Source: Hygrocybe punicea (taxonomy: Eukaryota > Basidiomycota > Agaricomycetes > Agaricales > Hygrophoraceae). Taken from it: 64,000 nucleotides of DNA. Positions 5,002 to 56,177 of the stretch are shown piece after piece; the first letter of the stretch is position 1; each line of letters begins with the position of its first letter. The notes beneath the pieces are model-generated. The model did no database searches. It saw nothing but the letters and a program-made list of their open reading frames with translations, and was not told where the DNA came from. The stretch spans positions 1,488,001 to 1,552,000 of the forward strand of contig OY744468.1 of NCBI GenBank assembly GCA_963556145.1. The letters are read 5' to 3'. A program made the position numbers and the translations under genes.

Positions 5002-6290
5002 TCACAAACTAAAAACGGCGCGAAGCTGGAGTCCAATAACACCGCCGCCTTTACCGTCCCAACCAGGGATCTGAGCCCGGCAAACTGGACATCTGCAAAT
5101 CAATAGAAACGGGTCAGCTTGTGGAATCGGACTACGGTGTAATGAGGGTGTCATTGTGCCAGTGATGAGAGTCTTCCCCCGCCGATGCGCTCGGCCACAA
5201 AGTAGTAGGTCCCGATAGCCCTTCCGTTAGAAGAACCCCGGCGAATCGGCAAAGTGAGAACGTTATTATCTGGTTACACTGGGAGAATGCCACTGGCACA
5301 AGCTCTCGTCACATAAATTCAGCTATCCGGCCTGAACATGACAAGCAACAGCAAGAATTTGCCATTTGCCACAGGCGTTGCAAAATAATCCACAAAAGAC
5401 GAGAAACGAAGTGTATACTACACTCACCTGGGAACTGCCTCCACCATCATCGTCTGAGCGCGCTGCATCGTTGTCTTCACGGCTGTAAACAAGCACGTGC
5501 CGCAGCAGATGTGGCCGCAGGGCGTGAGGGTCGCGTTCATCGGTGGTGAGAAGCAAATGGGGCATGCATAGGACGAGAGTGGGTCCTCTGCAGGAGGTGC
5601 CGGTGAGGCGGTTCGCCGTGGGAGGAGGGGTAGGGCAGAGGTGGATGTGAGGGGTGGAGAAGGAGAGCAAGACCCGATGGTGATTCCGTGTGCATTGACG
5701 TTGGTGGGGTTGAGGATTTTAGCAAGGCTGCTGCTGCGTGTGTTGACTATCCCGCCAAAGGGCAGATCAACCTGCTGTGCAGGAACTATCCCCAGTTCCA
5801 TGCCTCCAGCGACCTGCACGCCTTCATCATCGATTTCTATGTGTGTATTCTCCTCCGCGTCCATGGCTTTCCCTTTCCCTTTGTCGTATGTCTTTTCGGA
5901 GACAACGATGTTCACTCTGTGTCTCTTCGTGCTATCCTCGGGGTCGATATCGATACTTTGTGACTTCTGGTCTCTAGGTATATTGTTTTGGATATTTGAC
6001 GGCGAAGCCAGAGCAGCGGGAGAATTTGAAGACGGTGGATGTGAGTTGGGGCGAGAGAGTGACGACGAGTTAGAGGAACGCGTGGCTCGGACTGCCCTTG
6101 AACTAGGTGGAATATTACATGTAATGATTCTGGTCGTCTCAGTAGCAGGCGAAGTCAGGTCAATTGGGGAGCATTTCAGCCATGGTTGGTAGGTCGATGG
6201 GACTCGAATTACAATGTACTTGAATTTATTGTTTACACCAGGTACACGGATTGCTGTTGCGTCTGTGGGGCCATTTGGGGAAGAGTACAT
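5002..6290 (-). CDS. RING-finger (C3HC4) protein, probable E3 ubiquitin or SUMO-targeted ligase
   Basis: Exon 1 (6290-5428) encodes a long Ser/Pro-rich, disordered N-terminus followed by a split RING: YACPICFSPP, then CGHICCGTCLFTAVK. Exon 2 (5092-5002) supplies the last cysteine pair as CPVCRAQIPGWDGKGGGVIG and then the stop. The 335-nt intron (5093-5427) is long for this genome but has canonical ends (CAG/GTGAGT ... TTTGCAG) and keeps phase, giving 317 residues. The basic segment KGKGKAMDAEEN precedes an acidic HIEIDDEG motif that could bind SUMO, which is inference. The N-terminus is less certain because no ATG-proximal homology anchors it. Confidence 0.8.
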
Positions 6291-6781: not shown

Positions 6782-9470
6782 TTAGTCTGCCCAGGCATCC
6801 TGAATTCGTTCTGCTAGTACTCTGTCTTCTTCTATTTGGTCCCTTTCGGTTGCCTTCTTTTTGCCCTTCTCCTCCCTCTCCTTCTTCTCCCTCTCCTCCC
6901 TCTCCTTCTTCTTCCTCTCCTCCCTCTCCTTCCTCTCCTTCTCCTCCTTCTCCTCCTTCTTCTTCTTCTGTAAAGGAAAACGTGAGAGAGAAACATGTTG
7001 GGTTTGCAGTGAGTGTTACCTTGCGCGCCGCTTGCGCTTTTTGAAAATATGTAGGGGCACGAGATAGTTTTGATAATTCCTATAAAGGATAATGTGAGGG
7101 AAACATGTGAGGTTCGTAGTGTGAGTGTTACCTCCTCTGCATTCGGTAGCCCGGCGTCTGGTTCCCCAGATTGGCTTGGCGTTTGCTGTAAAGGGAAATA
7201 TGAGGGAAACATGGTCAGATGCTAGGTGCCCGGGCTGTTCGGGCTGTACGGGCTGTTCGGAACACTCACAGATTGGACCGGAGGCGGCGGCAAGAGTCGA
7301 AACCCCCGAGTGCCACCAACCTCGGGCTGAGGCACCTGGCCCTTTCTCCTAGACGTTCCCTGGACAGGCGAACTGTCCGGCGGCGGGGGTGATGATAATA
7401 AACTAGGGTCTGGTTGGCCGGGTGTCTGTAAAGGGAACTGTAAGAGGGAAAATGTTGGGTTTGTGGTGCGAGTGCCACCAATTTGAGGCAGGGGCCGAAC
7501 ATTGCCCATTGTCCCAGACCGTGGCTTGCCCTTTGCCCCAGACTGTGGAGGCGGTCCCTGGACAGGCGAACTGTGAGGGAAACATGTGGTGTTCGTAGTG
7601 TGAGTGTTACCTGCGTGCCCACCGCCGGCGACGGTCGCAATGAACTATCGTCTGCTTGCCGTGCTCGTTCTCTCCGCGGCCGCAACGGAGACAGTGGAGG
7701 CCTTAATTGTTGGAGAATTTCTGTGTATGTTACCCGATCCTCCGGTTGCTGCTTGGGAGTTTGTTGTACTTGTGTTTCCACATCCTGCGTTGTCCGCATG
7801 CGCTGTGAAGGGAAATATGAGGGAAACATGTTGAGTTTGTTGTGCGTGTGTTACCTCTTCCCGCATGCGCTGTGAAGGGAAATATGAGGGAAACATGTTG
7901 AGTTTGTAGTGCGGGTGTTACCTCCAAATCCTTCTCTTTCCGCTTGTGCTGTGAAGGGAAATATGAGGGAAACATGTTGAGTTTGTAGTGCGGGTGTTAC
8001 CAACCCTGATCTTTTTAGGTCCCTGTAAAGGAAAATGTGAGGGAAACATGTCGGCTTTGTAGCGGAAGTGTTACCTCCATCGTCGCCGCCTGCTCAGGCC
8101 GCTTAACGCGTTCTTGTTTTGCCTGTAAATAGAAATTTAAGAGGGAAACATGTTCGGTTTGTAATGAGTGTTACCTTCGGGTCCAACGATTTTAGAACCT
8201 GCGACGGACCGAAACTAGGTGGGCTTGCCTATAAAGGAAAATGTGAGGGAAACATGTGGGATTCGAGGTGTGGGTGTTACCAGCGGCGAAGATGGTGGTA
8301 TCCTAGAGCTTGACGTTGCCTGTAAAGGGACACGTGAGGGAAACAAGTTGGGTTTGTAGTGGGAGTGATACCTTCAGCTTAGCCCGCAACAAAGACGTTT
8401 TCGAGACCTCGGATTGGGGCGTGGAGACCGCGGATTTGGGCGTGGGGACCTTTCCAGTTGTCAGGTCTAATTCGAGTTGCTTTGACTGTAAAGGGACACG
8501 TGAGGGAAACAAGTTGGGTTTGTAGTGGGAGTGATACCTTCAGCAAAGCCCACTGCAAAGACGTTTTCGAGGAGGCCGAGGCGACCGCGGATAGGGGCGT
8601 GGAGACCGTTCTAGTTGTCGGGTCTAATTCGAGTTGCTTTGACTGTAAAGGGACACGTGAGGGAAACAAGTTGGGTTTGTAGTGGGAGTGATACATTCTC
8701 CTTAGCCCGCTGCAAAGACGTTTCCGTGTTCGCCGAGGCGACCGCGGATGGGGACGTGGAGACCGTTCCAGGTGTCAGGTTCGTATCCACCCACAGCGAT
8801 GGTTTCCTAGGTGGATTCTGTATGAAGGAAAATGTGAGAGGGAAATATGTTGGGCTTGTAGTGAGATTGTTACCTCTGTCGTGGAGTCAGACGCCAAAGT
8901 TAATTCAGATGTGCCTGTTTGGCTTCGCTGTAAAGGGAAATGTCAGACGGAAACATGTTGGGTGTGTAGTGAGGTATTCGCCTGCGAGCCTCGAGGCCCC
9001 ATCGGCCCTTGACCAGGTGTCTGTGAAGGAAAATGTGAGAGGGAAATATGTTGGGCTTGTAGTCAGTATTACCGGAGGATCCGCTCTCCTCTGCAAGTCA
9101 ATAGTGACAACGTAGGTGCCAGGAAGAAGGGATTGAGCTCTGAGTTTGATATGCTAAGAGTACATGGCTACTTACATCCAGTGTGTACAAGATCGACCGC
9201 TTCGTCAAGTTGTCATCGGCCACGACACTTGTTGTATATGTCAGCATGTCAGCGTACGTGCGGGACGCCTAGAAGTTGAAAAGGCGAACCTCCTTCGCAA
9301 ATGGTGGAAGATCTGATCTGCGTTGATGTCTCTCACCTGCGCGGGATAGGAGTGAAGATGAGTCTGAAAGGATTGTGCTGGTAGAGCAGACGGTTGCGTA
9401 CCCGGAGCGGCGCAGAGACGGCGAGTGTCGCAGAGGAGAAGGCAACGGTGAAGACAGTGAAGAGATGCAT
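6782..9470 (-). CDS. Secreted modular protein, 20 exons with 17 near-identical introns (copy A)
   Basis: Begins MHLFTVFTVAFSSATLAVSAP, a clear signal peptide. Exons on the minus strand: 9470-9337, 9227-9176, 9090-9073, 9020-8982, 8927-8874, 8817-8695, 8642-8538, 8485-8372, 8319-8281, 8228-8175, 8122-8075, 8022-8001, 7948-7922, 7869-7855, 7802-7611, 7557-7479, 7425-7270, 7185-7132, 7079-7020, 6967-6782. About 520 residues. After VVADDNLTKRSILYTLD come short P/S/T/Q-rich modules; three are recognisably related (each starting SKQLELD or NPPRKP and containing a VSTP core). The last exon is a K/E-rich coiled coil ending ERIQDAWAD. From exon 3 on, all exons except two (22 and 79 nt) are multiples of three in phase 0, so those two borders are uncertain (a GTTGGT donor 4 nt earlier would fix the first). 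It resembles a candidate effector; function unknown. Confidence 0.7.
6968..9072 (-). repeat. Family of 17 near-identical phase-0 introns in copy A
   Basis: Read on the minus strand each unit starts GTAACACTC or a close variant and ends CTCACATTTCCCTTTACAG, with a middle close to ACTACAAACCCAACATGTTT. Positions: 6968-7019, 7080-7131, 7186-7269, 7426-7478, 7558-7610, 7803-7854, 7870-7921, 7949-8000, 8023-8074, 8123-8174, 8229-8280, 8320-8371, 8486-8537, 8643-8694, 8818-8873, 8928-8981, 9021-9072. Twelve of the 17 are exactly 52 nt. All contain a CTCAC/CTGAC-like branch site about 15 nt before the AG, or a close derivative. The unit at 8928-8981 appears to use a GC donor (GCGAAT). The unit at 7186-7269 is longer because of an internal CAGCCCGAA-type tandem repeat. 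Confidence 0.9.
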
Positions 9471-9493
9471 GGTTTAGAAGGGTTCGTGAAGTT

Positions 9494-9542
9494 GTGAGTT
9501 GTGAGTCGTGAGTCGTGAGTCGTGAGTCGTGAGTCGTGAGTT
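9494..9542. repeat. 7-bp microsatellite (GTGAGTC)n in the 5' leader of copy A
   Basis: About seven tandem copies of GTGAGTC/GTGAGTT lie just upstream of the start codon of copy A. The paralogous leader upstream of copy B (about 19402-19436) has fewer copies, so the array differs in length between the duplicates. Confidence 0.85.
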
Positions 9543-9588
9543 ATGTGTGGGAGACCAGCTCTGGGACTTCCAGAGAGCTATGAGAGTG

Positions 9589-9596
9589 CTTTTATA
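9589..9596 (-). promoter_or_regulatory. TATA box of secreted gene copy A
   Basis: TATAAAAG on the minus strand, about 120 nt before the ATG. It is embedded in a block conserved with copy B (cttccagag-gctatgagagtgcttttataggcgtagacgag), suggesting a retained core promoter. Confidence 0.65.
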
Positions 9597-9877
9597 GGCG
9601 TAGACGAGGGCCATGGCAGCAGGGTCACGATTGACCAATTCCGGGCTGTGCTGATGGCATGTCAATTGATAGGGTAGAGGGAATGCAATATTACATTTGT
9701 TAGGGCTGGCGCTGTCCTACCTCCCAAAGCCGAGCCTGAAGGCGGGGATTGTCTTGGAGATGTCCTTTGAAAGAGCACGATGCCCATTCCTGGCCACGGG
9801 TTTCTCGATCGACATCGCCAGATTCGCCACATGTACAGCTGAGTCAGCTGAACCACTGGCAGCGCAAAGTTTTTCAT

Positions 9878-14116: not shown

Positions 14117-17100
14117 CTAAGCATACAAATCGTCGTCATCATCCTCCTCATGCTCGTCAAAATCCTCTTCGTCTTCCTGACCTAGCAATGTAGCAATATC
14201 TAACCCTGGCTTCTCGACAAGAACATATTCAGCATCCGGTACCTCAATCCTGCCTTCCGGTGTCACCTTGTAGAAAGGGAAAAACGCCACAACAGAGTCG
14301 ATGACTTTGATGTCGATGACTTGCAATGCTTGATCACTTTGGTAGTTACACGCATAAACCGTCTGTTCCGAGAGTTTGAGAAGTTCGAGATCCGGGTCAG
14401 AGAAGAGAGAGACAAGAGCAAGTGAATAGATCTCATCAGGTCCAAAGCGAAGACGGAAAAAGTATTGCACTTCAGCAAACTCAGATTTGCTATTGCCTTG
14501 AATACGAATCTAGAAACAAGTGAGAGAAAGTTTGAGCAAAAGAATAGTGAACACACCTTGACATTGCGAGTCCTTCGAAGATTCCTTTTAGACCGAGACT
14601 CGTACCAGAGTGATCTGGCTATTTGTCCATTTGGAAGGGATAGGCGTGCCCACCGTTTAACTGTCCTTGTCCAGCCATCCTGGTTTTCCCAACCTTTGTT
14701 CGTCCAGTAGCGGAGAATTGGATCTGACTCAACTTCAGTCACATCAGTGGGTGTCTTCTGGCATGCCCGCAACAATGCATAGCCTCCTCCAAGATCAACT
14801 GCACCTCGAGGAAGCTTGTCTTTTGTTCGAAGATCGATGTTTGGTATTATGGCACGCATTGAATTGAGTTGCGCACGCAGAATGCCACGTTGTGATATGT
14901 TTGCATAAGGATCGCGGTCCTGTCGTATTTCTTGTCCAAGATTGCCGATCATCGTCTCCATCGTCCATTGTGCATAGCAGGCCATAGGCCCAATGCGGAC
15001 TGTTTCTGGACCCATATGTGTCAGGAGGTGTATGCTGTGCCGGACAAAATGAAGGCGTTCAGGTCGCCTCTGATAATACAATTCTTCAAACTCCCTCACG
15101 AATTTGCACAGCATCATTGTTCCTTCTGTCAATTGCGCAGCCGAGATCGACCGTTGTTGCAGAAGATGGACACCACGTACAAGTTTGCAGTAGTTGCGCC
15201 AATACTTTTCAGGTAAAATGGAGTGGAACAATGCTGGTCCGAGACCGAATATATAGAGAAGGAACTCCCAGGCCTTGTAGCCTGAGTTGATCTTGTCTGC
15301 CGGATTTCGTGGAGCACGATCAAAGGACGAAGGGATGAATGATGTCGCCAATGCAACAGTCTGACCATGCGCATCCCATACAGCACCTTTCAAAACAGCC
15401 CAATCCCAGGTCGCCTTCGTATCAGGCAGGTAACATTTGATAGTTCCACGCCAAAGTCCTATCATGAGATCAGGATCATTGAGAGTGACGAGATGCATGA
15501 TGTCGAGGAGATTCATCTTCGGAACACCGAGAATGTGTTCCTCCATGAGGCCACTGAGAATTGTCGGTTTTGTGAGACCAGTTTTAAGGCGAATGGCTTT
15601 GAAACGAGTGGGGTTCGGAGCAGCAACTAGTTCTGCAAGGTTATTGTTATATCGTTGAGTAATGTTCCAGCGAAAATTGTGGAGTTTTTGAAACGTAACA
15701 TCATCGTGTGTGCCTCCTTTGACAGTATAATTGACTGGCTTGAGCATGGCGGGGTAGTAATGGTTGTCATTGGGTGGACGACGGCCGGGAATACCACAAT
15801 ACATACGACAACCATGTTTCCCCTGATGTCCAACCATTCCCGTCATTTCGGCCATGGCCACACCATCGGCAGTGTTGAAGCCAAGGAAAGGGATCGCTTT
15901 CACAACATGTGAGTTGGTCGCAGCATTCCAGATGCGCAGGCCTTCTTTCTGAAGAGCAGAAATATGGTAAAGGCCAGGCCACATGAAAGAATCTGAGTGC
16001 TTCGGCTTGTTGGGACCTCCAGCAAATCCACCCGGGGCGACATAAGTTTTAAGGTATCGAAATAAGGGAGAGAGGTTGTGGATGATAAAAACGTAGATCC
16101 AACAGTCGGATGACTTGTCTCGGTACAACTGAGCTGAATCAAATGACAATTGTAACACAATGTCGTCGTCTTTGATCTTGCCACTGCGAACGGCATCCAA
16201 ATATTCTTGGCCACAATACGTATCATTGTACATGTCCAGTCTGCCTCCATGGGTATCAAGATAGTCAAGTATCCGTCTCGTTTCCTGAGAACGATATTGC
16301 ATCATGACGGCAGTCTTTGGTGAGCGGTAGAGTGCTTGGATGACAGGTCCAATTGGTATGGTATGAAATTGTCGTCGCGGAACTCGTTCACCAGCTCGGG
16401 TTTGTATGTTTGTATGATAACGATCCTCCGAGCAGAAGGGGCAAGCATCGAGCTCGCTGAATGGCCCTGTGAAGGCAGCACAGGAATCGACACACATGTC
16501 GTGAACAATTGGAGAGACACCACTAATCATCTCGACACGTCTCTTCATCTGATCAAATGAGAAAAACTCATCTTCAGGATGCCGAGCCATGGCTGCTGCT
16601 CGGATTGAGTGATACGTCTCTTGTGAAGCATTTGTTACAGAAAGAAATGTCCGTAATGAGAAGAGAAAGTCGGGGTCTTCTACATCGAATGGGAGATCTG
16701 GTGACGCCTCACGGAGGTATTCGATAGCTTCCTGTTTCATATTGCTGGCGTCAAGTGTCGCATGTCTGAGGGAATTGATAAATTCAGCAGTGATTCGAAT
16801 GTTCTCAATGGTCGAGTGAGTTCCCAGTGATACAAAGGGGTCGGCAGGTTGTTCAACAGCCTGGGGTGGTGGATTTTCGTCAACGGCATCATTGTCAGAG
16901 AGTTCGAGTCCATCGGCATCAACATCGCGATCTATCTCATCATTGGCTTCCACCAGATCACTCAGCAAATGCCCAATATCCTGATTTTCCGGCAAGGGCT
17001 CGATATCCTGGTATTCTTTTGAGGAATACACACAACCATAGAAATAAGGAAAACGAACCTGATCAACATCAAGCCCTACAACAGCCTCAGGCTCCAACCG

Positions 17101-17334
17101 TGGCCTGACATTCCTCCTTGTCTCCCGGTCTTCTGGGGTATCAACATCATGATCTCCTGAGTTCCCTGCGCCTGACTGCATATCAGATCCCCCATCTTGT
17201 GTAGAATCGGCAGGTGGCAAAGGCTGGCGAGGACCACGGGAGGTCAGAAATTCTGCCAAGGCCGCATCTGTAGTTGCTTGGTAGTATCGACGGAATGTTG
17301 CTCTAGAGGCATGCTCTCGGGGACGAGGTGGCAT
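14117..17334 (-). CDS. Tnp2-family (CACTA/EnSpm-like) transposase
   Basis: Exon 1 17334-14557 and exon 2 14509-14117 with a 47-nt GT-AG intron give about 1056 residues in one frame without internal stops. The protein has the order expected of fungal Tnp2 transposases: an acidic N-terminus, a CPFCSEDRYH zinc-binding-like motif, LQLSFDSAQLYRDK with the first catalytic-type Asp, a GGFAGGPNKPKHSDSFMWP block, FLGFNTADGVAMAEMTGM, a CRMYCGIPGR cysteine motif, MNLLDIMHLVTLNDPDLMI, and a C-terminal region with HLLTHMGPETVRIGPM. Exon 2 ends in an acidic tail (EDEEDFDEHEEDDDDDLYA). An intact frame suggests recent activity, although its partner gene is broken. Confidence 0.9.
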
Positions 17335-18072: not shown

Positions 18073-19378
18073 TCATTGCGGCTCGCCATAGTTTTTGGAG
18101 GGCCGCCTATTTTTCGTTATTCCGCGTGTCTTCTTGGACGTAACCGGAGACTGCAACGGAGGCGCGGTGACCTGAGCGAGTTAAAATCCAGCTATCCACA
18201 GAAGAGGCTTACCTTCGGTGTCTTCCCAGGAGGCTTTTCCTGTAAAGGGAAATGTGAGGGAAGTATGTTGGGTTTGCAGTGGGAGTGTTACCTCTGCCGT
18301 CGTGGGCATGGACGGAGACTCGGACATTCTCTCGAATGTATTCTTAGGTATTGTCTGGACAGGGGAAATGTGAGGGAAACATGCTGGGTTTGTAGTGGGG
18401 TGTTACCTCTGCCATCGTATCCTCCGACGGTGGTTGAGGCCCAGCCAGATAATTGAACGGATTCCGAGCAGGTATTTGCTAGACAAGGGAAATGTGAGGG
18501 AAACATGCTGGGTTTGTAGTGGGGTGTTACCTCTGCCATCGTGGGCGTGGACGGAGACTCGGACATTCTCTCGAATGGATTCTTAGGTATTGTCTGGACA
18601 GGGGAAATGTGAGGGAAACATGCTGGGTTTGTAGTGGGGTGTTACCGGCTCACCACCTTAAGCGCCTGTCCACGCGTCTGTAAAGAAAATTGTGAGGGAA
18701 ACGTGTTGGGTTTTGTAGTAATAGTAAGTGTTACCTTCGCCCTGGTAGCTGTTGTTGAGGCTTTGGCAGGAAGATTGCTGGGCTTGCTGGTAACATGTGC
18801 GGTGGTTGAGGCAACGTTGAATCTGGTTTCTCAGAATGGCCTGCTGGTACCTGTAAAGGGAAATGGGAGAGGGAAACATGTTTGGTTTGTAGTGAGTCTT
18901 ACCCCTGTCTGCGCCTTCTCCAGGGGGCTCGGCGGTCCAGGTGGTACAACAGGTTGCTGTAAAGGGAAATGTGAGTGGGAAACATGTTGCATTTGTAGTC
19001 AGTACTACCTCGGAATCTGCTCTCCTCTGCAAGTAAATGGTGAAGGGATTGAGCTCTGAGTTCGATATGCTAAGAGTACATGGCTACTTACATCCAGTGT
19101 GTACAAGATCGACCGCTTCGTCAAGTTGTCATCGGCCACGACACTTGTTGTATGTATATGTCAGAATGTAAGCGTATGTGCGGGACGCCATAAGTTGAAA
19201 GGGCGAACCTCCTTCGCAAATGGTGGAAGATCTGATCTGCGTTGATGTCTCTCACCTGCACGGGATAGGAGTGAAGATGAGTCTGAAAGGATAGCGGACC
19301 GTTGCGCACCCCGAGCGGCGCAGAGACTGCGAGTGTCGCGGAGGAGAAGGCAACGGTGAAGACAGTGAAGAGATGCAT
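18073..19378 (-). CDS. Secreted modular protein, paralog with 7 near-identical introns (copy B)
   Basis: Starts with the same signal peptide as copy A (MHLFTVFTVAFSSATLAVSAP) and shares the exon reading VVADDNLTKRSILYTLD (19143-19092). Repeated introns on the plus scale: 18240-18291, 18355-18406, 18479-18530, 18594-18645, 18678-18734, 18851-18902, 18957-19008; six are 52 nt. Three exons are repeats of one module (each opening TIPKNP or QIPARNP and ending AE), with the last exons EKPPGKTPK and SPVTSKK...GEPQ (18150-18073). Relative to copy A, exon 1 has a net 11-nt deletion, so joining exon 1 to exon 2 at the equivalent sites is out of frame; exons 18735-18850 and 18646-18677 also need shifted donors (a GTGAGC donor fits the latter). 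It may be a pseudogene or use other splice sites. Confidence 0.55.
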
Positions 19379-19929
19379 GGTTTAGAAGGGTTCGTGAAGT
19401 TGTGAGTTGTGAGTCGTGAGTCGTGAGTCGTGAATTATGTGTGGGAGACCAGCTCTGGGACTTCCAGAGTGCTATGAGAGTGCTTTTATAGGCGTAGACG
19501 AGGGCCAGCAGGGTCACGATCGACCAATTCCGGAACGGGCTGTGCTGATGGCATAAGATATTAGGGTAGGGAATGCAATATTACATTTGTTAGGGCTAGC
19601 GCTATCCTACCTCCCCCAGCCGAGCCTGAGGGCGGATTGTCTTGGAGATGTCCTTTGAAAGAGCTGTTTGAAGATAGAACCCTGAGTTTTCGAGCTCTGA
19701 GATTCAAACCGCCACTGTAAATAAGTATCGCCCCATATAACTCGTACAGTGACAGTGATAGACACCGGTTCTTATCGTATACTAGATCAGTATAGGCGCA
19801 CCACTTCACACGAGGAACTGACTCAGTGAAAAGCCATGCGGATACCATGAGGTTACTGCGGATGCCTCCGTATAACAAAGAGGGACGAGAAGCCATTCCC
19901 TCAGCGACATCATCACCAAAGCCTGCGAT
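19379..19929. promoter_or_regulatory. Divergent promoter region shared by secreted gene B and BTB gene
   Basis: About 550 bp separate the two start codons. Blocks such as gaatgcaatattacatttgttagggct and cgagcctgaggcgg are conserved with the region 9640-9760 between secreted gene A and the decayed BTB copy, showing that the intergenic region was duplicated together with both genes. Confidence 0.65.
19483..19490 (-). promoter_or_regulatory. TATA box of secreted gene copy B
   Basis: TATAAAAG on the minus strand about 105 nt before the ATG, at the same relative place and in the same conserved block as in copy A. Confidence 0.6.
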
Positions 19930-41687: not shown

Positions 41688-44600
41688 ATGTCAAGCACTC
41701 AAAATGACCCTTCGTCGTCGTCGTCCACGCCATCGGGTGGTACCAACTCAGAAACAGTCAATCAGTGTATTCATGTCACTGACCGCTTCTGGCTCGGAGA
41801 CGTTACCAAAGCATCAGCCATCCTTGAGCTATAGAATATCCTCACCGACCTTGGTCTTGAAACCGATGTCCTCGAGTCCACATTTGCCGTTTATCTCCAG
41901 ATCCTTGATAACATCGACCAACGGTGTAGTAGTTGTGCCTGGTCAGTCACGTGATCAGGTTCCCACGGTTTGACCTAGTCAGTAGCCTTCCAGATGTAGT
42001 AGTCAGTCCATCCTTCCTATCCAGTCGACCTTTCCCTCGAGTCCTGCGTGAGCCCCCGGAGTGGTACCTCGGTACCACTCCAACGTGGTGATGAGAGTGT
42101 TTTTCGACCCACGCACCTCTTTTTCTCTCGGTTTCTCACTCCTGACGTTTTTTTTCTCGCGAGACGACCTTTTTTCGGCCTCACCACCCCTGCTGCGCGA
42201 CGGCGCATTTTCCCTTCATTCACGGCCGTACCTCAGTTGCATTACCCCCTGGCACCCTCGCTCAGTCCACCAGGGCCCCGCGTCGACCATTGTTGACCCA
42301 GAAACGCGGACTCAACCCTTTTTGAGCACCCAAAAGCCCCAGGCCACGCCACCCGCGTTCGCGCCCCGTTTCCTCTTCTCAGACCAAGGACGGCCTCTCA
42401 AGCTTTCCTTCGACGTCTTACGGCCCCCGTTCTGCCCCACGTCGTCCCAGGAACACCATCGACGTCCATTTTTGACGCCCAACGGCCACCCGCGTACAGC
42501 CGTGTCACGACCTTTCGACCCCCCCATATTTTAGTGTTCCCCAGCCCACTCGTATCCATCCAGGCCCCCGCGTTCACGCTCGACGACCCGGTGCCCACGT
42601 TCTGCTCGAAAGAACCCCCCGTTGCCGTCCATTTTGGATACCCAAGCCCCTGCCACGTCATCACCTTTCAACCCCCCCGCTTTTCGTATGTCCCGTTCCC
42701 AACCCACGTTCATTCAATCCCCCGCGCCGTCGTTCCATCCACCAGGGCCCCCCGTTGCCCCCCGTTGGCCCCAGATGAGCCCCCACCGTTGTTCTCGGAC
42801 ACCCAAGCCACGCGCCATGTCACCATCGCACGGCCCCGTTCTGCCAGCACAACCGGCCCAGACCAACTCACCAAACTCACGGCCCACCCCCCAGAACACC
42901 CTGCGTCTCGTTAACGCCCCGAACGAGCCCCACCGCCGTTTTTGGTCGCACCACGGATCCGTCGCGCCCACCCGTTGGACCCCCGTTCTTTCGTGTACCC
43001 CAGCCCCACACGGACCCATTCGACCACCCGTGCCCTCGTTCCACCGGCCAGGACACCCCGTTCACCTCCATTGCGCCAAACGAGCCCCCACCGTTGTTTT
43101 CAGACACCTGGGCCACGCGCCACGTCACCATCGCACGGCCCCGTTCTGCCAACACACCCAGCCCCGGACCGACTCACGAAGCTCGCGGCCCACCCGTTCA
43201 CCATCCCGGAGCACCCCACCTCGATCCAATACCACCGTGCCCACTGTTCCCAGACCCCCACCGCGTTCCGCCACGTCACCATCTCTCAGCCGGATTCTTG
43301 CACCATACCTGGCTCCTCGAGCCCTCGTTCAGCTCCCCGCGACCTCGTCTCGACCCTGGCGACTTCCCCGACCCGTAGGGACCCAAACGAGTCACCGCCG
43401 CGACCACTTAGCACCCCAGCACTAGTCCCCTCGTATCGAGAATCCCCGATGCCACCGCATGGCCCAATGCACCCGTACGTTTTCCCTTTCCCCCGTTTAC
43501 ACCGTACCTTGTCCCGTCCCATCCCCTTTCCCCACCCTCGACATTTATTGGATATTCGACCTATCTACGAACCATCACTGCTCGACAGCACCGTACCTAT
43601 TTACTTTCGCACGAACCACCCAGTCTATTTTCGGATCACAAGAACTCACACCCTGGGCTACAAGAACTTATGGTTTTGAACATTTTTATCCTACCCTGCG
43701 ATGTGAGTCCCAGAGGCATTCGAGGATGGAGGAGCAGAGCAGAGTTACAGTTTGGTCATCTACCACCCCCAACGATCTTGGAGGACGATACGGTCCCGCC
43801 TCACGTATAAGGCCCGGGGCATCGTGAGGGACTGGGAGTCGTGACTGGAGAGTTTTTTTCTTGGTCAGTTTTGTTTTGCTTTTTGTTTTCTTTTAGTAGC
43901 GGTATGGTGACGAGGACGTCACCATGAGGAGGAGGGGCACTTGTAGTAGTTGTGCCTGGTCAGTCACGTGATCAGGTTCCCACGGTTTGACCTAGTCAGT
44001 AGCCTTCCAGATGTAGTAGTCAGTCCATCCTTCCTATCCAGTCGACCTTTCCCTCGAGTCCTGCGTGAGCCCCCAGAGTGGTACCTCGGTACCACTCCAA
44101 CGGCTCAGTGAGGCCAGAGCCCACGGGACCTCCTTCTCCGCTCCCGGCCCCGGTCAAGGTCCACCTGAGCCGGAAGTCGCAGTCATCCGATCGCACGAAC
44201 CATTGCCGGTCACCTCCCCAGCTCCTGATAAAGAGGCTCACGCTCCTAGAGCGGCTAAGCGACCCCGGAGCCCCAGTGTTGACAGTGAGCCCGACCAAGC
44301 GGTCAAGCCAAAGATCAACCTCAAGTCACTTCTGTGGGTCATTCAAGAAGAAGTGGACCCCTCATGTCTTTCCGTCTCCCTTCAAAAGACCCTGTCGATG
44401 CTCGACAATATCTCCCGCAATCCCAAACTCGCCAGGTTGTCCCTCCTCAACTCAGCCCGGTGTCTGCAGTTCCCTGACTCAGAGTGGACCAACTTGCTTG
44501 CAGGATGAGCTGTCGACCTTGATCATGTCCTCACCAGCGGATACTCCATCACTCACGATGACAAATGATCTGAAAAGATCGGTGGAGTTGAGTTCGTCGT

Positions 44601-45081
44601 CGGAGCCATTAAGCCTGCCAGGGTCGTTGATACACATGGGAAGTGGATCATCACCTGGGGTCGAACCAGCGAGGCGACCCTCTTCGTTTTCCCCCACAGG
44701 GCCATCGAGTTGCAGGATTATGGAAAGCATATCAGCGAATTGTTCACTGCCTTCCCAGACTCCATGCATCAATGTATCATCCAATATGACTGGGCTACTC
44801 GCATCCGGACTGCTCAGCGGCGAGACGTCGAGCTTACAGACTTCGCACGTTTCGCCGACCTTCATGTCCTCTGGATCCAAAACGCCGGCGCTGGCACCAG
44901 TCACACTCAAACCACTGAGTGCTCGCAGCCAGACACCGCCAAGCGTAAAGAGCCCTGCCGGCGGTGGAATGCCAAACACTGCCCTAACATCGCCTCGAAC
45001 TGCGACTATAAACACATCTGCGCCAAGTGCTGCTCCCCTCAGCACCCATCCGTCGACTGCACCGTGTTCCAAAAACAGTAG
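41688..45081 (+). pseudogene. Gag-like ORF of the Ngaro-type element, broken
   Basis: Begins MSSTQNDPSSSSSTPSGG, hits a TAG near 41832, continues through TFAVYLQILDNIDQR to 41924 and, after the LTR-element insertion, resumes at 44100 with LSEARAHGTSFSAPG. Later parts include LLWVIQEEVDPSCLSVSLQK, TGA codons at about 44506 and 44568, AIELQDYGKHISELFTAFPD, and a cysteine/histidine knuckle CRRWNAKHCPNIASNCDYKH followed by ICAKCCSPQHPSVDC. This zinc motif is typical of the ORF preceding RT in mushroom YR elements. Confidence 0.75.
41925..44099. mobile_element. Small non-autonomous LTR retrotransposon (TRIM-like)
   Basis: Two 158-bp direct repeats (41925-42082 and 43942-44099), beginning TGTAGTAG and ending CTCCA, differ by about one base. 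A 4-bp duplication ACGG flanks the unit (41921-41924 and 44100-44103). A purine-rich tract (gaggaggaggggcac) precedes the right LTR. The interior has no reverse transcriptase, only C-rich diverged repeats of about 200-300 bp (for example ccatcgcacggccccgttctgcc at 42823 and 43127), whose long open frames on both strands are composition artefacts. Confidence 0.85.
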
Positions 45082-46920
45082 CCTCCAAGATTCATGGTCG
45101 AGACGGCCCAAATATGCCCGAGCCTTCATCTGGGATGATTCAGATTACCCCCATCAACTTTCTCTCTCCTCGGCCACACTTCACATGCCACCACTTCCCT
45201 CGCCAGCGCTCGAGGAATTCGGCAACGCACCTGCTTTATGTACTCTCCACGAGAACCCGCAGCTCTTCGATATAGTTACGCCCATCAATGTCTCTCGCTT
45301 TGGTGACCTCCTCAGTTCGCACCCTAACCAGAGCCTCATTCACTCCATCTGCCATGGGCTGCAGGTTGGATGCAGGTTGGATTCTGGCCCTGGGCCAAGT
45401 TTGACCCTACTTGGCTGCTCACGTGGGACAATTCTGCACGCGTCCTTCACAATCCCACAGAACGGGACTTTGTCCAGTCACAATGGGACAAAGAAGTCTC
45501 TCTTGGCCGCTTTTCTCCCACCTTTGGCCCTCACCTCCTCCCCAGCATGCATGGCATACTGATCAGAGTTGTACCCAAACCCGGCATGTTGACGTTCCGC
45601 CTCATCGTTGATCAAAGCGCTGAGCCGTTCTCTCTCAATTCCCTCATTCCCTGGGACAAGGTCGCCATTCCGCTCAACGGTCTCCATCACTTGGGCCACG
45701 CCCTCTGCCACGTCTGCTCCGTCCATGGCCCCCACACCCGCCTGGTTGTTTTCAAGTCCGACCTCTCCCAAGCTTATTGGCATCTGCCCATGCACCCGCT
45801 TTGGCAGCTTCATCAAATCATCACGGTCGATGGCCTCTGACATGTCGACCGTTGTAATAACTTTGGCAACAGGGGCGCCTGCGGCATCTGGGGCGCCTTC
45901 ATGGGCCTCATCCCCTGGATTGCAATCTTCGTTAAGTACATTCACGACCTCTTCGCCTACGTTGACGACTCTTTTTCTTGGGATTTCGAAGGCAACGTTC
46001 TTTGGTATACCCCTTTCCACAAGGCCTTGCCTGCCAAGCAAGCTCGTCTTTTGATGTTGTGGGACGACATTGGGCTTCCGCATGACGAATCCAAACAGCT
46101 CGCTGGGCCCATCTTACCCATCATTGGCTTCGACGTCGACCCCAACGCCATGACTTTTAGCATGTCACCTGAATGACGCCAAGACCTCCTCATTGCCATC
46201 CGCGACTTCGCTTGACCGGGACACCGTCGCCCTCTACCCGACTTCCAATAGCTCGCCGGCTGGATGAACTGGTCATTGAACATTTATCCCCTCCTGTGGC
46301 CTGGCCTCTCCATTCTATACCGCAAGATGGCCGGAAAGTCACAGCCCCACCAACTCGTCTGGATCAGCATGGAACTCTGTCACGAACTCTTGTGGTTCGC
46401 TGGCCACCTCGAATCTCTGCCTGGCATCCTCCTCATTGAGTCCTCTACCTGGGACCCCCCTGCTGCCAACACCATCCTTTGTGTGGATGCTTCCTTCCTT
46501 GGCCTCAGCTTCTGGTGCCCCGCTCTGTCCCTCGGATTTCAGTGCCCGGTGCCCGACCTGTCCTTTGACTGCATCTTTTATTGGGAAGCCCTCGCTGTCC
46601 TCTCTGCCCTCCACTGGGTTTTGACATCTGCACCACATTCCCCTTGTCGCATCGCCATTTTTACTGATAATTCTAATACGGTCGACCTTTTCAATAGCCT
46701 ACATGCCCAGCCCGTCTATAACCCCATCCTCATCACAGACGTCGACCTCCTTTTGGCCTCTCGCACTGAGCTTCATGTCTTTCATGTCCCCAGCTCCGAC
46801 AATGCTGTCGCCGATGCCCTTTCCTGTTTCCACAACGCCTCCATTCTGTCTTCTTTCCCTCATTTCACCATCTCCCCATTCATACCCCCTCGTCTGTCAC
46901 TGGGGGCGGCCGTGCAATGA
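45082..46920 (+). pseudogene. Reverse transcriptase/RNase H of the Ngaro-type element
   Basis: RT blocks: PTERDFVQSQWDKEVSLGRF, GILIRVVPKPGMLTFRLIVD, FKSDLSQAYWHLPMHPLW and the catalytic FAYVDDSFSW. RNase H-like part: ANTILCVDASFLGLSFWCP, CIFYWEALAVLSALHWVL, AIFTDNSNTVDLFNSL and HVPSSDNAVADALS. The frame is shifted by an 11-bp tandem duplication (gcaggttggat twice, about 45362-45383) and interrupted by stops at 45838-45840, 46174-46176, about 46213 and about 46250. All but one are TGA where the context suggests an original CGA. Confidence 0.88.
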
Positions 46921-47900
46921 ACCCGCTCGGACGGTCCCATCAGCCCATTCGGGTTGCCTGGACCCATGACTGCCTCGTCCATGAACAGGCCGTTGCCCTC
47001 GGCTTCTCTCTCGAACATTCTTCCATGCTTGCTTATTCGTCTGCTCTCCATTCCTATATGTCTTTTTGCACCGCTCACCATTTTTCACCTGCCCCCACTC
47101 CCAAAACCCTTAGTTTTTTTACTGTCTATATGTGTCATCACATCAACCCTAATTCCATTTCCGCGTACTTGTCCAGTGTATGTACTCAGCTCGAACCTTT
47201 CTACCCCGATGTCCATTCCGCCTGGCTTCATCCCCTTGTCACTCGTACCCTCCATGGTTGCAAGAAGATGCGCACCGTCGGTACCACCCAGAAACGGCCT
47301 CTCTTCCGCTCTGAGCTCGTTTCCCTCTGCAATACTTATCACCCCTCTTTTGAACACAATGACAAGCTGTTCCTCTCCCTCCTCCTCGTAGGATTCCATG
47401 CTCTCACCCATCTCGGCGAGTTGGTGTGGCCGGATAGCGTTTCCCTACGCGATTACCGAAAGATAGTCATGTGGCGCTCAGTGCAATTCCTGCCGGAAGG
47501 TTTTTCCTTCCACCTGCCTGGGCATAAGGCCGACAGGCTATTTGAAGGCAACACCATACTCCTTTGACGTCTCCCCAATGGCGATGATCCCGTTTCCGCT
47601 TTCGAATCCTATCTCACTTCCCGTGACCTTCTCTTTCCCCTCCACCCAGAGCTTTGGCTCCACCACGATGGCTCCATGCCCCTTCATTCCTGGTTCCTCA
47701 GCCGTTTATGCCGCCACTTTCCCGCCGAAGTTGCTGGCCAGTCCCTCCGCTCCAGTGGTGCGACTGCCCTCGCCTGTGATGGTGTTCCCCTTGATCAAAT
47801 TCAGGCCATTGGCCATTGGGCTTCCAAGACCTTTCGCATCTACATTCGTCAGCACCCTGCTCTCCTCGCTGCGCATCTCGCACCTCGCGCATCATTCTAA
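46917..47900 (+). pseudogene. Tyrosine recombinase of the Ngaro-type element
   Basis: Overlaps the RT frame by an ATGA. N-terminal SAM-like region MAYSSALHSY-type sequence (SMLAYSSALHSYMSFCTAHH), then FRSELVSLCNTYHPSFEHND, LLVGFHALTHLGELVWPDS (position of the first catalytic Arg is here His), GQSLRSSGATALACDGVPL (HxxR-box equivalent reading QSLR) and IQAIGHWASKTFRIYIRQHP with the catalytic Tyr. One TGA at 47566-47568 interrupts it. The Arg and His substitutions and the stop indicate inactivity. Confidence 0.85.
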
Positions 47901-48017
47901 TCTTTCATTTTATTCTTCTCTCCCTTTTTCTTTTTGCTTTTCATTTACATGCAGCCCCATCCATCTTCTCCTCTCTCCCTTTTCCCTTTCACCTCTCCCT
48001 CTTCTTAGCCTTTTATG

Positions 48018-48138
48018 GTTCCTCATTGTAAACACACCAAAAAGAATCACTACATTCCCGGACCGCGCCGCTGTTTCAGGGTGCGGTCGTGTTTCCTATT
48101 CCCTTTCCATACATCCCAAAAGTGGCCAGTGTGATTAG
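48018..48138 (+). repeat. Repeat B1 of the Ngaro-type element
   Basis: ggttcctcattgtaaacacacc ... aaaagtggccagtgtgattag, repeated as B2 at about 61450-61573 with a few changes. Confidence 0.85.
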
Positions 48139-51060: not shown

Positions 51061-51509
51061 ACCAGAGCCCACCGTGAGGAGTTTAGTTCTTTTGTCTTTT
51101 CATACCCTCCCCACCGTCGGGTTTGACTTTCATGACATTTTTCCTTTGTTCCCGACTCTAATCGCTCAGCCCCGCTTATGACTTCGACCCCTTCCTCGTA
51201 CCTCCCCGATCTGACCCGCTTCCCAATTTGGAAATTCCCCGATATGACGCATGGATTGATGCCTCTCCAAGGTGATCATTCAGCCCCAACGTTTCATGGT
51301 GACGAACACGACCTTCCCCGCTTTGACGAAATTGACATGCTCGGCTCCGATTGTGGACTCACGGACACTATGAAGATTCGCTACACACTCTGGTACCTCG
51401 ATAACGACGACTACAAACTTTGGTCTACCCTTCCCGCTGCCTCAGCAAAGGACTTCATCGCTTTTCGACGTGCCGTTTTTGACTTCTATCCCAGTGCCAC
51501 AGACAGTAT

Positions 51510-54500
51510 CACTTCAGGCTACCCCCAAACCTGAACAACTAGTTACAACTCACCTCTAGTACTGAACCATCTACATGTTGGTAAAAGTACTGGGCAGCCC
51601 TGGGATGAAACCATCGTCCCTGGGATGATACGTTGGGATGTCCCATTGTCCCTGGTCTGGTGTATGGGATGGCCCATGGGACGACATTTGGTGTTGTGGG
51701 GGTGTCTGGGGGCATTTGGGACGTCCCTCCCCTAGCTATTCAATAGAAAACTCAGAGTGATGACAGCATCTAATTATAAATTTCCAGGCCTTGTCATGGC
51801 CACTATGGGTACCATGGGTGCTATGGCATAGTATACGATTGTACATACTTATTCTTTTGAGAGTCACAGAGCTGATTGTCCTTCAAGGTCATTGGCAGGG
51901 TGTGAAGATACAGCAGTTGTTTCCACATATAAAGACAGAAGGAGTGGGACAGGAAAAGTGCTGGAGATGTTGGGTAATGAGATGGGATTGAGGGGGAGGA
52001 TTGAGGGTGTGCTTCTAGTAAACCAATCCCTAGTGCATGTGGCAAGCTGAAGCTTGTAGGGGAGTAAGTGAGCAGAGCATGCATGATATACAAAGAAAAG
52101 TAGGGCTACATATGCAGAGGAGGCTGAGCTGAAAATTAAACACATGTATTATGAAGAGCATTTGATCAGGATATCAGTGGTTATTACATTATTGGCTGTG
52201 CATACAATGGCTGACTGGGAAGCAGATGCAGAGGAGAGATCTGAAATTAGAGTGTGTCTTGAGGACAGTGGACTTGGGTAAGGAGACATCTCACAGAGGC
52301 TTTATTGGGACATCCCACAGGCTTGTCTGGGATGTCCCTGTCAGCTTGCAGCTGAGGCTTTCGGACATCCCTGTCATCTTGTGGGACATCCCACCAAGGC
52401 TTTGGGACATCCCACAGTCTTGTCTGGGACATCCCTGCCAGCTTGTGGGACGTCCCACGGAGGCTTTGGGACGTCCCACAGCCTTGTCTGGGACATCCCT
52501 GCCAGCTTGTGGGATGTCCCGCCAAGTCTTTAGGACATCCCACAGCATTGTCTGGGACGTCCCTGACAGCTTGTGGGACGTCCCACCGAGGCTTTGGGAT
52601 GTCCCACAGCCTTGTCTGGGACATCCCTGTCAGCTTTTGGGATGTCCCACAGGCTGGTTGGACTGACTGCTTGCTCAGCATCTGCTAAGTAATCATACCA
52701 ATAAACCATTATATCATATGTTATAACATAATTTTAAATAATTTACATTTAGCAACTTACTTAAAATAGACATTGCAAATCAAATAATTATTTTGCTTAA
52801 TTATATACATATCTACATTATCATGAGATGAGGGAGGGAGGTGGTGGTGGTGGTGGTGGAGAGAAGAGGAGAGGTGGAAATGACCAGGGGGAATGGAGGG
52901 GGTGGGCAAGGGGAGAAGGGCAGGAGGTGGATTGGAGGTGGGGCTGGCAGGGGGCAGGAGATAGGCAGGGGGAGAAGAGGCAGGAGGAGAGAGGAGAGGG
53001 AAATGGGAGGAAACGGGAGGGAAACGGGGGGGACCTACAAAGTTACATACCGGGGTTACCCACATGTCCACCCCCCTCCCCGTCGCCCCCGTCGTCGTTG
53101 TTGTTCCCGTGTGGCCCCGTTCCCATTCGTGTTGCCGTAGCCGTCCCATTTGCTGTCCCGTCCTCGCCATTTCTGTCCTCGCCATCCCCATTGTCGTTGT
53201 CCTCATTGTCGTTGTCCTCATTGTCGCGGTCTCCACTGTCATCATCCCGTTCCCTCGTCCCGGCCGTCCTCGGTTCCGTTGCCTGTTGTCCTGGTCCCCG
53301 TTCCCATCCTCGCTGTCCTTGTCGTCGTCCTTGTTGTCCCCATCCTCATCCTCGTCCTCATCCCCATCCTCATCCTCATCCTCATCCTTGTCCTTGTCCT
53401 TGTCCTTGTCCCCGTCCCTGTGTGGTGGCCCACGGCCGTCAGCGCCGTGCCGTTCGTGATGTCGTTGCCATCCCATTTGCTGTCCCGTCCTCACCGTCCC
53501 CGTCCTTGTTGTCCCTGTTGCCATTGTCCTCATTATCCTGATCTCCGTTGTCCTTGTCATCCCGTTCCCTCGTCCCGGTCATCCTCGTTTCTGTCATCCG
53601 TCATCGCTGTCCCCATTCCTGTGCTCACTGTCCTGGTCGTTGTCCTGGTTGTCGTCCCCATTGTCCTCGTCATCCCTGTTGTCCTCATTGTCCCCATTGC
53701 TGTCGTCCCTGTTGTCGCGGGCTCTGTGGTCCTCGTCGTCCCCTTCCCCCTCCCGGTCGTCGTCCCGGTCCCCACGGCGTGAAAGGGGAAGATGAAAACA
53801 GGAACCACAACAATGGGAAGACGACAACGAAGACGAGGATGACGAGTAGGGCAGCAGGCATGGGGACCGGGACAACGACCGGGAGGGGGAAGGGGACGAC
53901 GAGGACCACAGAGCCCGCGACAACAGGGACGACGGCAATGGGGATGATGAGGACAACGGGGATGACGAGGACAATGGGGACGACAACCAGGACGACGACC
54001 AGGACAGTGAGCACGGGAACGGGGACGGGGATGATGGACGACGGAAACGAGGACGACCGGGATGAGGGAATGGGATGACGAGGACAACGGAGATCAGGAC
54101 AACGAGGACGACGGCAACAGGGACGACGAGGACAACAATGACAACGATGGGGACTGGGACCACGATGACGGCAACGACGGCAACGGCAACGACGAGGACG
54201 GGGATGGCGAGGACGGGACGGCAAACGGGACGGCAACGACAACACGAATGGCATGGGGCCGACGGCCGTGGGCCACCACACGGGGATGGGGACAAGGACA
54301 AGGACAAGGACAAGGACAAGGACAAGGATGAGGACGAGGACGAGGATGGGGATGAGGATGAGGACGAGGATGGGGACGACAAGGACGACGACAAGGACAG
54401 CGAGGACGGGAACGGGGACCAGGACAACAGGCAACGGAACCGAGGACGGCCGGGACGAGGGAACGGGATGATGACAGTGGAGACCGCGACAATGAGGACA

Positions 54501-56177
54501 ACGACAATGGGGATGGCGAGGACAGAAATGGCGAGGACGGGACAGCAAATGGGACGGCTACGGCAACACGAATGGGAACGGGGCCACACGGGAACAACAA
54601 CGACGACGGGGGCGACGGGGAGGGGGGTGGACATGTGGGTAACCCCGGTATGTAACTTTGTAGGTCCCCCCCGTTTCCTCCCATTTCCCTCTCCTCTCTC
54701 CTCCTGCCTCTTCTCCCCCTGCCTATCTCCTGCCCCCTGCCAGCCCCACCTCCAATCCACCTCCTGCCCTTCTCCCCTTGCCCACCCCCTCCATTCCCCC
54801 TGGTCATTTCCACCTCTCCTCTTCTCTCCACCACCACCACCACCACCTCCCTCCCTCATCTCATGATAATGTAGATATGTATATAATTAAGCAAAATAAT
54901 TATTTGATTTGCAATGTCTATTTTAAGTAAGTTGCTAAATGTAAATTATTTAAAATTATGTTATAACATATGATATAATGGTTTATTGGTATGATTACTT
55001 AGCAGATGCTGAGCAAGCAGTCAGTCCAACCAGCCTGTGGGACATCCCAAAAGCTGACAGGGATGTCCCAGACAAGGCTGTGGGACATCCCAAAGCCTCG
55101 GTGGGACGTCCCACAAGCTGTCAGGGACGTCCCAGACAATGCTGTGGGATGTCCTAAAGACTTGGCGGGACATCCCACAAGCTGGCAGGGATGTCCCAGA
55201 CAAGGCTGTGGGACGTCCCAAAGCCTCCGTGGGACGTCCCACAAGCTGGCAGGGATGTCCCAGACAAGACTGTGGGATGTCCCAAAGCCTTGGTGGGATG
55301 TCCCACAAGATGACAGGGATGTCCGAAAGCCTCAGCTGCAAGCTGACAGGGACATCCCAGACAAGCCTGTGGGATGTCCCAATAAAGCCTCTGTGAGATG
55401 TCTCCTTACCCAAGTCCACTGTCCTCAAGACACACTCTAATTTCAGATCTCTCCTCTGCATCTGCTTCCCAGTCAGCCATTGTATGCACAGCCAATAATG
55501 TAATAACCACTGATATCCTGATCAAATGCTCTTCATAATACATGTGTTTAATTTTCAGCTCAGCCTCCTCTGCATATGTAGCCCTACTTTTCTTTGTATA
55601 TCATGCATGCTCTGCTCACTTACTCCCCTACAAGCTTCAGCTTGCCACATGCACTAGGGATTGGTTTACTAGAAGCACACCCTCAATCCTCCCCCTCAAT
55701 CCCATCTCATTACCCAACATCTCCAGCACTTTTCCTGTCCCACTCCTTCTGTCTTTATATGTGGAAACAACTGCTGTATCTTCACACCCTGCCAATGACC
55801 TTGAAGGACAATCAGCTCTGTGACTCTCAAAAGAATAAGTATGTACAATCGTATACTATGCCATAGCACCCATGGTACCCATAGTGGCCATGACAAGGCC
55901 TGGAAATTTATAATTAGATGCTGTCATCACTCTGAGTTTTCTATTGAATAGCTAGGGGAGGGACGTCCCAAATGCCCCCAGACACCCCCACAACACCAAA
56001 TGTCGTCCCATGGGCCATCCCATACACCAGACCAGGGACAATGGGACATCCCAACGTATCATCCCAGGGACGATGGTTTCATCCCAGGGCTGCCCAGTAC
56101 TTTTACCAACATGTAGATGGTTCAGTACTAGAGGTGAGTTGTAACTAGTTGTTCAGGTTTGGGGGTAGCCTGAAGTG
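51510..56177. mobile_element. 4.67-kb near-perfect palindromic (foldback) element
   Basis: CACTTCAGGCTACCCCCAAA at the left is exactly inverted at the right. The arms (51510 to about 53775 and about 53867 to 56177) match almost base for base around a loop of about 90 nt. Flanked by the 7-bp direct repeat ACAGTAT (51503-51509 and 56178-56184). Each arm holds a stretch of GGGACATCCC-type repeats and a long GAC/GTC-rich tract whose open frames (up to 421 codons) on all strands are compositional. No transposase. Confidence 0.92.
52290..52660. repeat. Array of palindromic decamers GGGAYRTCCC (left arm)
   Basis: More than 20 occurrences of gggacatccc/gggatgtccc/gggacgtccc spaced mostly 15-35 bp apart; the mirror array is at 55030-55390. 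Related words recur at 51600-51690. They resemble clustered binding sites in transposon ends. Confidence 0.8.

Follow-up and report, generated by a model that had tools for sequence, protein, structure and literature searches.

The 64,000-nt stretch of the Hygrocybe punicea genome analyzed here (the window; contig OY744468.1, positions 1,488,001 to 1,552,000 of the forward strand) carries on its minus strand a gene for a predicted secreted protein, gene A, and a neighboring paralog, gene B (Table 1). A hand-built model of gene A runs on the minus strand from an ATG at 9470 to a stop at 6782 and comprises 20 exons and 19 introns encoding 533 predicted amino acids. The final stop is the only one in the spliced frame, compared with 14 and 16 stops in the alternative two frames. 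Introns 1 and 3 to 19 are in phase 0 and intron 2 is in phase 2, and exons 4 to 20, which range in size from 15 to 288 nt, are each a multiple of three in length. A splice-site dynamic-programming model reproduced the lengths and phases of introns 4 to 19 and differed from the hand-built model at intron 2 (531 amino acids), leaving the protein downstream of the pro-region the same; this agreement is not independent, because the codon scores of the dynamic-programming model were trained on gene A. The 5′ leaders of both genes contain tandem repeats of the 7-bp unit TCGTGAG, with 8.1 copies in A (9484 to 9541) and 5.9 copies in B (19392 to 19433). A RING-finger ORF adjoins gene A (5424 to 6290, minus strand; zf-C3HC4, E = 7e-7).

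Table 1. Positions of the features of genes A and B within the window
Feature	Positions	Strand	Remarks
Gene A, predicted secreted protein	6782..9470	minus	20 exons, 19 introns, 533 aa; gene models and stop counts
Promoter/5′ leader of gene A	9471..9700	minus	CCCAGAGCTGGTCTC stretch (present in paralogs) and CTCACGA repeats
Exon 1, signal peptide	9402..9470	minus	identified by inspection
Introns 1 to 3 and exons 2 to 4, conserved pro-region	9073..9401	minus	dibasic LRR, LTKR, LDRR; phases 0, 2, 0
Intron 4 (52 nt)	9021..9072	minus	site of the single copy in most paralogs
Intron 5 (54 nt)	8928..8981	minus	GC-AG
Intron 6 (56 nt)	8818..8873	minus	
Recent amplification	8316..8780	minus	exon-intron unit, 157 bp × 2.9
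Intron 7 (52 nt)	8643..8694	minus	in recent cluster
Intron 8 (52 nt)	8486..8537	minus	same sequence as introns 7 and 9
Intron 9 (52 nt)	8320..8371	minus	
Intron 10 (52 nt)	8229..8280	minus	
Intron 11 (52 nt)	8123..8174	minus	
Intron 12 (52 nt)	8023..8074	minus	
Intron 13 (56 nt)	7949..8004	minus	GTTGGT donor; 52 nt with GTAACA at 8000
Intron 14 (52 nt)	7870..7921	minus	equals intron 13 taken from 8000
Intron 15 (52 nt)	7803..7854	minus	
Intron 16 (53 nt)	7558..7610	minus	
Exonized intron copy (53 nt)	7426..7478	minus	frame open only with the copy retained
Intron 17 (84 nt), hybrid	7186..7269	minus	3′ part is a degenerate copy
Intron 18 (52 nt)	7080..7131	minus	
Intron 19 (52 nt)	6968..7019	minus	
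Last exon of gene A	6782..6967	minus	C terminus rich in Lys/Glu
Paralog B	18073..19378	minus	7 family introns and an unrelated last intron, 18212-18151
Family introns of B	19008-18957, 18902-18851, 18734-18678, 18645-18594, 18530-18479, 18406-18355, 18291-18240	minus	

The putative introns 4 to 19 of gene A, judged to be introns from their splice signals, frame, and homology, are sixteen copies of one intron family of about 52 nt, in phase 0 throughout in the open-frame model. Eleven measure 52 nt; intron 13 measures 52 or 56 nt, depending on the donor, and the rest measure 53, 54, 56, and 84 nt. The pattern CTCACATTTCCCTTTACAG (≤3 mismatches) has 19 matches in the window, exclusively on the minus strand (14 in 6968 to 9039, 4 in 18240 to 18975, and a single stray at 39464), and none in 100 dinucleotide shuffles. 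The original prediction had described 17 minus-strand intron-like units, 12 of exactly 52 nt, interrupting one signal-peptide ORF. The units do look like introns of a signal-peptide gene, and 16 of them stand as introns in the model, the remaining one (7478-7426) having to be retained to keep the frame. The count of 12 holds if intron 13 is taken from 8000, but the open frame needs 8004, reducing it to 11 of 16. One of the two processes proposed there, the local amplification of exon-intron units, fits the recent clusters, which are built of tandem units of 157 bp (2.9 copies), 79 bp (1.9 copies), and 67 bp (2.9 copies) with exon sequence duplicated along with the intron.

Several members of the array are irregular. 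At intron 13, the GTAACA donor at 8000 breaks the frame, and the weak GTTGGT at 8004 preserves it. The copy at 7478-7426 matches introns 7 to 9 at 45 of 50 aligned bases (90%), and excising it puts a stop inside exon 17. Intron 17 resembles intron 14 in its 3′ part and has its donor, GTGAGT, on the former exon side, while exon 17 contains stretches of 17 and 10 nt that resemble other copies, the 10-nt one possibly by chance. Intron and exon sequence seem to exchange roles around intron 17 and exon 17, and copies of the array appear to decay in places, with one turned coding and another taking its donor from what was formerly exon. Under uniform random phase, the chance that all 15 extra copies lie in phase 0 is p = 7e-8, and for the 13 copies that needed no choice it is p = 6e-7; the phase is not fully independent evidence, because the model was partly picked for frame (the donor of intron 13 and the retained 7478 copy).

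Gene B, which contains seven copies, has a frame that is discontinuous across exons 6 and 7 when GTAACA donors are used, and reading through it requires a noncanonical splice choice. Exons 2 and 3 of the two genes are identical (0/47 and 0/52 differences), and introns 1 to 4 differ by 8.6%. Between A and B sits a 1,023-amino-acid ORF (14263 to 17334, minus strand) for which Pfam gave no hit; among the relatives of its residues 201 to 500, many carry a precomputed PF02992 (Tnp2 transposase) assignment and some are named mushroom proteins, and this transposase-like ORF may have had a part in the separation of A and B. Elsewhere in the window, long overlapping ORFs on the plus strand at 42600 to 48100, two of which were run against Pfam and gave no hit, presumably resemble a tyrosine-recombinase (DIRS-like) retroelement. 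A large palindrome at 51509 to 56178 has arms of 1,514 nt each (51509 to 53022 and 54665 to 56178) that are 100% complementary and an interior with more inverted and tandem repeats; it could be a mobile element or result from a fold-back in the assembly.

Gene A belongs to a family dispersed across the genome. Its 5′ part matched 34 places on many contigs of the 92.2-Mb genome, A and B included. Two further members on contig C3 were recognized by their intron and coding start, and a search with a second member yielded another three, on C34, C6, and C40, of which two were weak or short. The family thereby has at least 36 places, some partial, all counts from genome searches being lower bounds. 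A leader with AGAGCTGGTCTC, a signal peptide, and a dibasic pro-region ([TM]KR[SI] in 22 of 29 models) are common to the members; most good models have four introns in phases 0, 2, 0, and 0, and in some of the automatic models the 5′ end is wrong or an additional intron is doubtful. Upstream similarity is uneven, with the 500 nt before the ATG differing by 1% in the pair L028/L029 and by 51% in L018/L032.

When 28 paralog loci (L011 to L038, covered to 1.5 kb beyond each match, those between L021 and L028 viewed through gene models only) were searched with the intron model, 19 had one copy (weakest E, 0.089), 2 had two, and 7 had none. Five of the seven loci with no copy have, on splicing by hand, a GTAACGC intron at the same place; L019 and L036 are without one. 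The loci with two copies, L035 and L037, are among five family places that cluster within 180 kb (G000 C2:7590121-7767653). In the C2 members the intron is found further in, behind an enlarged exon 4, which makes their exon labels uncertain. The array intron is thus the ordinary intron 4 of the family, present in 16 copies in A and 7 in B. The original expectation that these introns would be limited to a single locus plus its paralog fails on this point, and it is the multiplication alone that is local. No homologue of the family was found at E ≤ 1 in the protein database, whether the query was a nine-member alignment (7,990 candidates scored, perhaps mostly sharing low complexity) or the conserved front alone (9 candidates), and searches of Pfam and PDB returned nothing for the family. 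As a control query, residues 201 to 500 of the transposase-like ORF found 174 proteins at E ≤ 1e-5, with named mushrooms among the 120 listed, so the database contains such fungi, though perhaps not this species.

Introner insertion is expected irrespective of phase. We found neither near-identical copies in many unrelated genes nor insertion independent of phase. An acceptor-side motif (≤2 mismatches) had 21 matches in the genome, all 21 in family genes, and 0 in the reversed control. The core pattern (≤3 mismatches) had 40, comprising 15 in A, 7 in B, 14 in other members, and 4 elsewhere; the last number is at chance level, against 3 in the reversed control, and one of these four matches, L068, scored poorly with the intron model. 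The whole array, used as a query, gave 12 genome matches (E ≤ 10, itself included), every one of which falls in a family gene, chiefly over introns; one match (73%) also spans a unit of B, aligned to intron 12, exon 13, and intron 13 of A. Genome-wide introners, which the original prediction had likewise disfavored, are rejected on the restriction of above-chance copies in these searches to one gene family and on the uniform phase 0 of the open-frame model. A family-restricted variant, in which a mobile intron 4 inserted repeatedly into the long last exon of A and B, would explain why the exons between copies are mostly without visible similarity when the intron copies are about 80% alike. It is nevertheless improbable, given that all 16 copies are in phase 0 in the open-frame model, that no unrelated gene has an above-chance copy, and that the recent clusters duplicate exon sequence jointly with the intron.

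Mean intron distances, gaps excluded, are 0.204 within A (15 copies, intron 17 left out), 0.178 within B (7 copies), and 0.203 between A and B. With gaps counted, the 22 copies of A and B have a mean pairwise identity of 76%. The distances of array copies to intron 4 of other members (16 introns) are 0.25 to 0.27. The near identity at first attributed to all of the copies applies to local clusters, in which introns 7 to 9 are identical, introns 13 to 15 have 0 to 2 differences, and introns 7 to 9 of B are within 2, but not to the copies of A overall. Outside the recent clusters, neighboring introns are weakly and nonsignificantly more alike (Mantel p = 0.09 in A and 0.12 in B), and the intron tree, resting on about 52 sites, is poorly supported. 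The array copy nearest to the intron 4 of any single-copy paralog is intron 19 (L014, 9.6% different). Because the within-gene distances about equal the between-gene distance, there is no sign of gene-wide homogenization, the second process that had been proposed; for the same reason, and in view of the 8.6% difference in introns 1 to 4, most of the array's diversity seems to predate the split of A and B. An old exon-intron array kept similar by gene conversion among its introns would account for the distance between introns 4 and 6 within A (7.7%) being smaller than that between the fourth introns of A and B (15.4%), but we regard it as very unlikely, since distances within the genes are not below those between them and since introns 1 to 3, which have no copies within the gene to convert with, are about equally conserved between paralogs. 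Most array exons have no homology to one another, and for that reason we infer the older units rather than observe them; residual similarity at exon flanks is weak (0.325 downstream, against 0.277 ± 0.018), and the upstream value of 0.380 is confounded by the splice-site consensus.

In most of the pairs compared, the exons change faster than the introns. In gene A, exon pairs 7/8 and 8/9 differ at 27 of 177 aligned bases, compared to 0 of 104 in introns 7, 8, and 9 (p = 3e-6), and the synonymous sites of this cluster exceed the introns as well (3/50 versus 0/104; p = 0.03); exons 8 and 10 of B, compared with their own introns, gave a nonsignificant result (3/63 versus 0/52; p = 0.25). Four pooled exon pairs (7/8, 8/9, and 14/15 of A, the last of only 3 codons, and 8/10 of B) have 27.5 nonsynonymous differences at 182.5 sites and 3.5 synonymous differences at 66.5 sites, a modest signal of selection (binomial p = 0.02; Fisher p = 0.055) that is missing from pairs outside the pool (exons 7/9 of A, pN 0.28 and pS 0.23; exons 8/9 of B, which are poorly aligned, pN 0.31 and pS 0.48). 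Diversifying selection on the exons is suggested by the pooled values.

Eleven paralog pairs were compared across the family, and in the ten besides A/B the introns differ by 0 to 3.4%, with exon 5 differing by 15 to 46% plus gaps in nine of them. L028/L029, for example, has 0/234 differences in introns, 1/207 in exons 1 to 4, and 81/238 in exon 5; L013/L015 has 3/260 in introns and 37/164 in exon 5 plus 307 gap columns; and L018/L026 differs by 2.6% in introns versus 46% in exon 5. The exceptions, without a fast last exon, are L030/L031 (5/144 in exon 5) and L018/L025, which aligns without a break at 88%. Several pairs regain similarity close to the stop codon or within the 3′ flank, among them L018/L021 (86% over 735 nt) and L019/L034 (86% over 871 nt), and the 3′ flanks of L023/L030 and L013/L015 likewise match again past the variable part; resumed 3′ matching is absent in several pairs, including A/B and L028/L029. 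The interiors of the variable regions show weak homology or none in five pairs (z = −1.2, 3.4, 6.0, 4.2, and 5.3) and strong homology in L013/L015 (z = 34.5). Substitution and repeat turnover both seem to be at work in the variable exons, and the variable C-terminal part looks disordered. A mobile 5′ cassette capturing new C termini, which the nonaligning 3′ flanks of L028/L029 and other pairs had suggested, was dropped as a general reading because in the four pairs named above similarity of the 3′ flanks returns past the variable part; for L028/L029 or A/B specifically, such a cassette is possible.

We consider the array to be probably the outcome of a tandem amplification in which units of exon plus intron 4 multiplied within the hypervariable C-terminal part of a conserved prepro secreted protein; some fifteen further copies of the gene's own intron 4 seem to have arisen in gene A, with adjoining coding pieces. 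This reading draws, at the level of sequence, on the existence of the family, the homology of intron 4, the open-frame phase, the unit repeats of the recent clusters, and the faster exons of most pairs. The starting state would have been the one seen in the paralogs, a conserved front, then intron 4 in phase 0 and a last exon prone to repeats, the hypervariable, repeat-rich C-terminal region being in most members one exon after intron 4. Tandem duplications spanning intron 4, to which both the clusters and the single-copy paralogs point, would have seeded copies in the last exon, in A and to a lesser degree in B and two other members, and the repeated exon piece with its phase-0 intron would have split the last exon into exons of 3n length and phase 0-0. 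The uniform phase 0 would follow because intron 4 is itself in phase 0, so that only duplications of 3n coding length survive. Unequal crossing-over among the copies may have gained or lost whole units in frame. Amino acid changes, indels, and repeat turnover would then make the exons diverge faster, as the comparisons indicate apart from L030/L031 and L018/L025, and the introns would stay recognizable because their drift is slower and splice constrained. The notion that gene A is decayed or unexpressed, its exons and introns being mimicked by neutral satellite-like repeats, would suit the frame break in B, the exonized copy, and the intron with a shifted donor, but is hard to credit when one frame is open over 20 exons and the others are full of stops, when splice signals are maintained in the copies, and when exons 2 and 3 of A and B are identical.

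The amplified gene would encode a secreted protein whose pro-region is processed and whose variable tail is disordered, a combination that suggests a role in interaction, which may be host related. The dibasic sites of the family lie in the conserved pro-region, where Kex2 cleavage is predicted from the sequence; inspection found no repeated cores between dibasic sites, the hallmark of KEX2-processed repeat proteins (KEPs).

Partial parallels exist in several systems, compared here through portions of the cited reports. Tandem duplication across an intron-exon boundary in potato likewise produced a new intron, with a donor derived from exon sequence (PMC4974935) as in intron 17, but that case concerns one new intron, whereas gene A has about 15 copies in series, all in phase 0, in a hypervariable secreted protein. 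Duplication of the intron together with exon sequence is seen in the recent clusters of gene A, and the single-copy ancestral state is seen in 19 of 28 loci, paralogs of one genome. Fungal introner-like elements (PMC4457414, PMC9860276) also form numerous similar introns, but in unrelated genes, whereas the above-chance copies of the gene A intron lie within one gene family. The micro-exon genes (MEGs) of schistosomes encode secreted proteins largely of short symmetric exons that would allow frame-safe skipping; those exons are 6 to 36 bp long, with variation by alternative splicing proposed (PMC5825161), and the exons of gene A are 15 to 288 nt. In the HYP effectors of cyst nematodes, a hypervariable domain built in frame from repeats lies between conserved ends, an arrangement we found in several paralog pairs and not in L030/L031 or L018/L025. 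The HYP domain, however, is a single exon with potentially thousands of alleles (PMC11228951), whereas that of gene A is split by introns and varies between the paralogs of one genome. SP7-like effectors share the signal peptide and a conserved intron directly ahead of a hydrophilic repeat domain, but they are described as Glomeromycotina specific, and the portion of the report cited mentions no series of introns between the repeats (PMC11333574). Conotoxin precursor genes combine family-conserved introns with a widely differing mature region; they have one or two introns per gene, and an intron array goes unmentioned in the part of that account used here (PMC3862624).

Each of the ingredients, namely tandem-duplication intron gain, symmetric short exons, hypervariable domains, a prerepeat intron, and conserved introns, is known, and our literature search found no description of their combination in one gene array. 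A bolder and rather doubtful reading is that the sixteen interchangeable phase-0 introns act as seams for recombination and splicing, a frame-safe diversification device supplying many alleles or isoforms per locus in A and its kin. If this were true, every crossover between copies, and every skipped exon, would yield a protein that stays in frame with its C-terminal set changed, and the device would be a simple route to the so-called frame-aware editing of nematode HYP genes. The array also carries a caution: where exons move fast, similar introns need not imply a mobile intron or homogenization. It is rare for the parent of a recently gained intron to be visible, and in this family one intron can be traced from members with one copy to a member with sixteen, exonization and donor shifts included, in an example of how the tail of a secreted protein can be radically altered without loss of frame.
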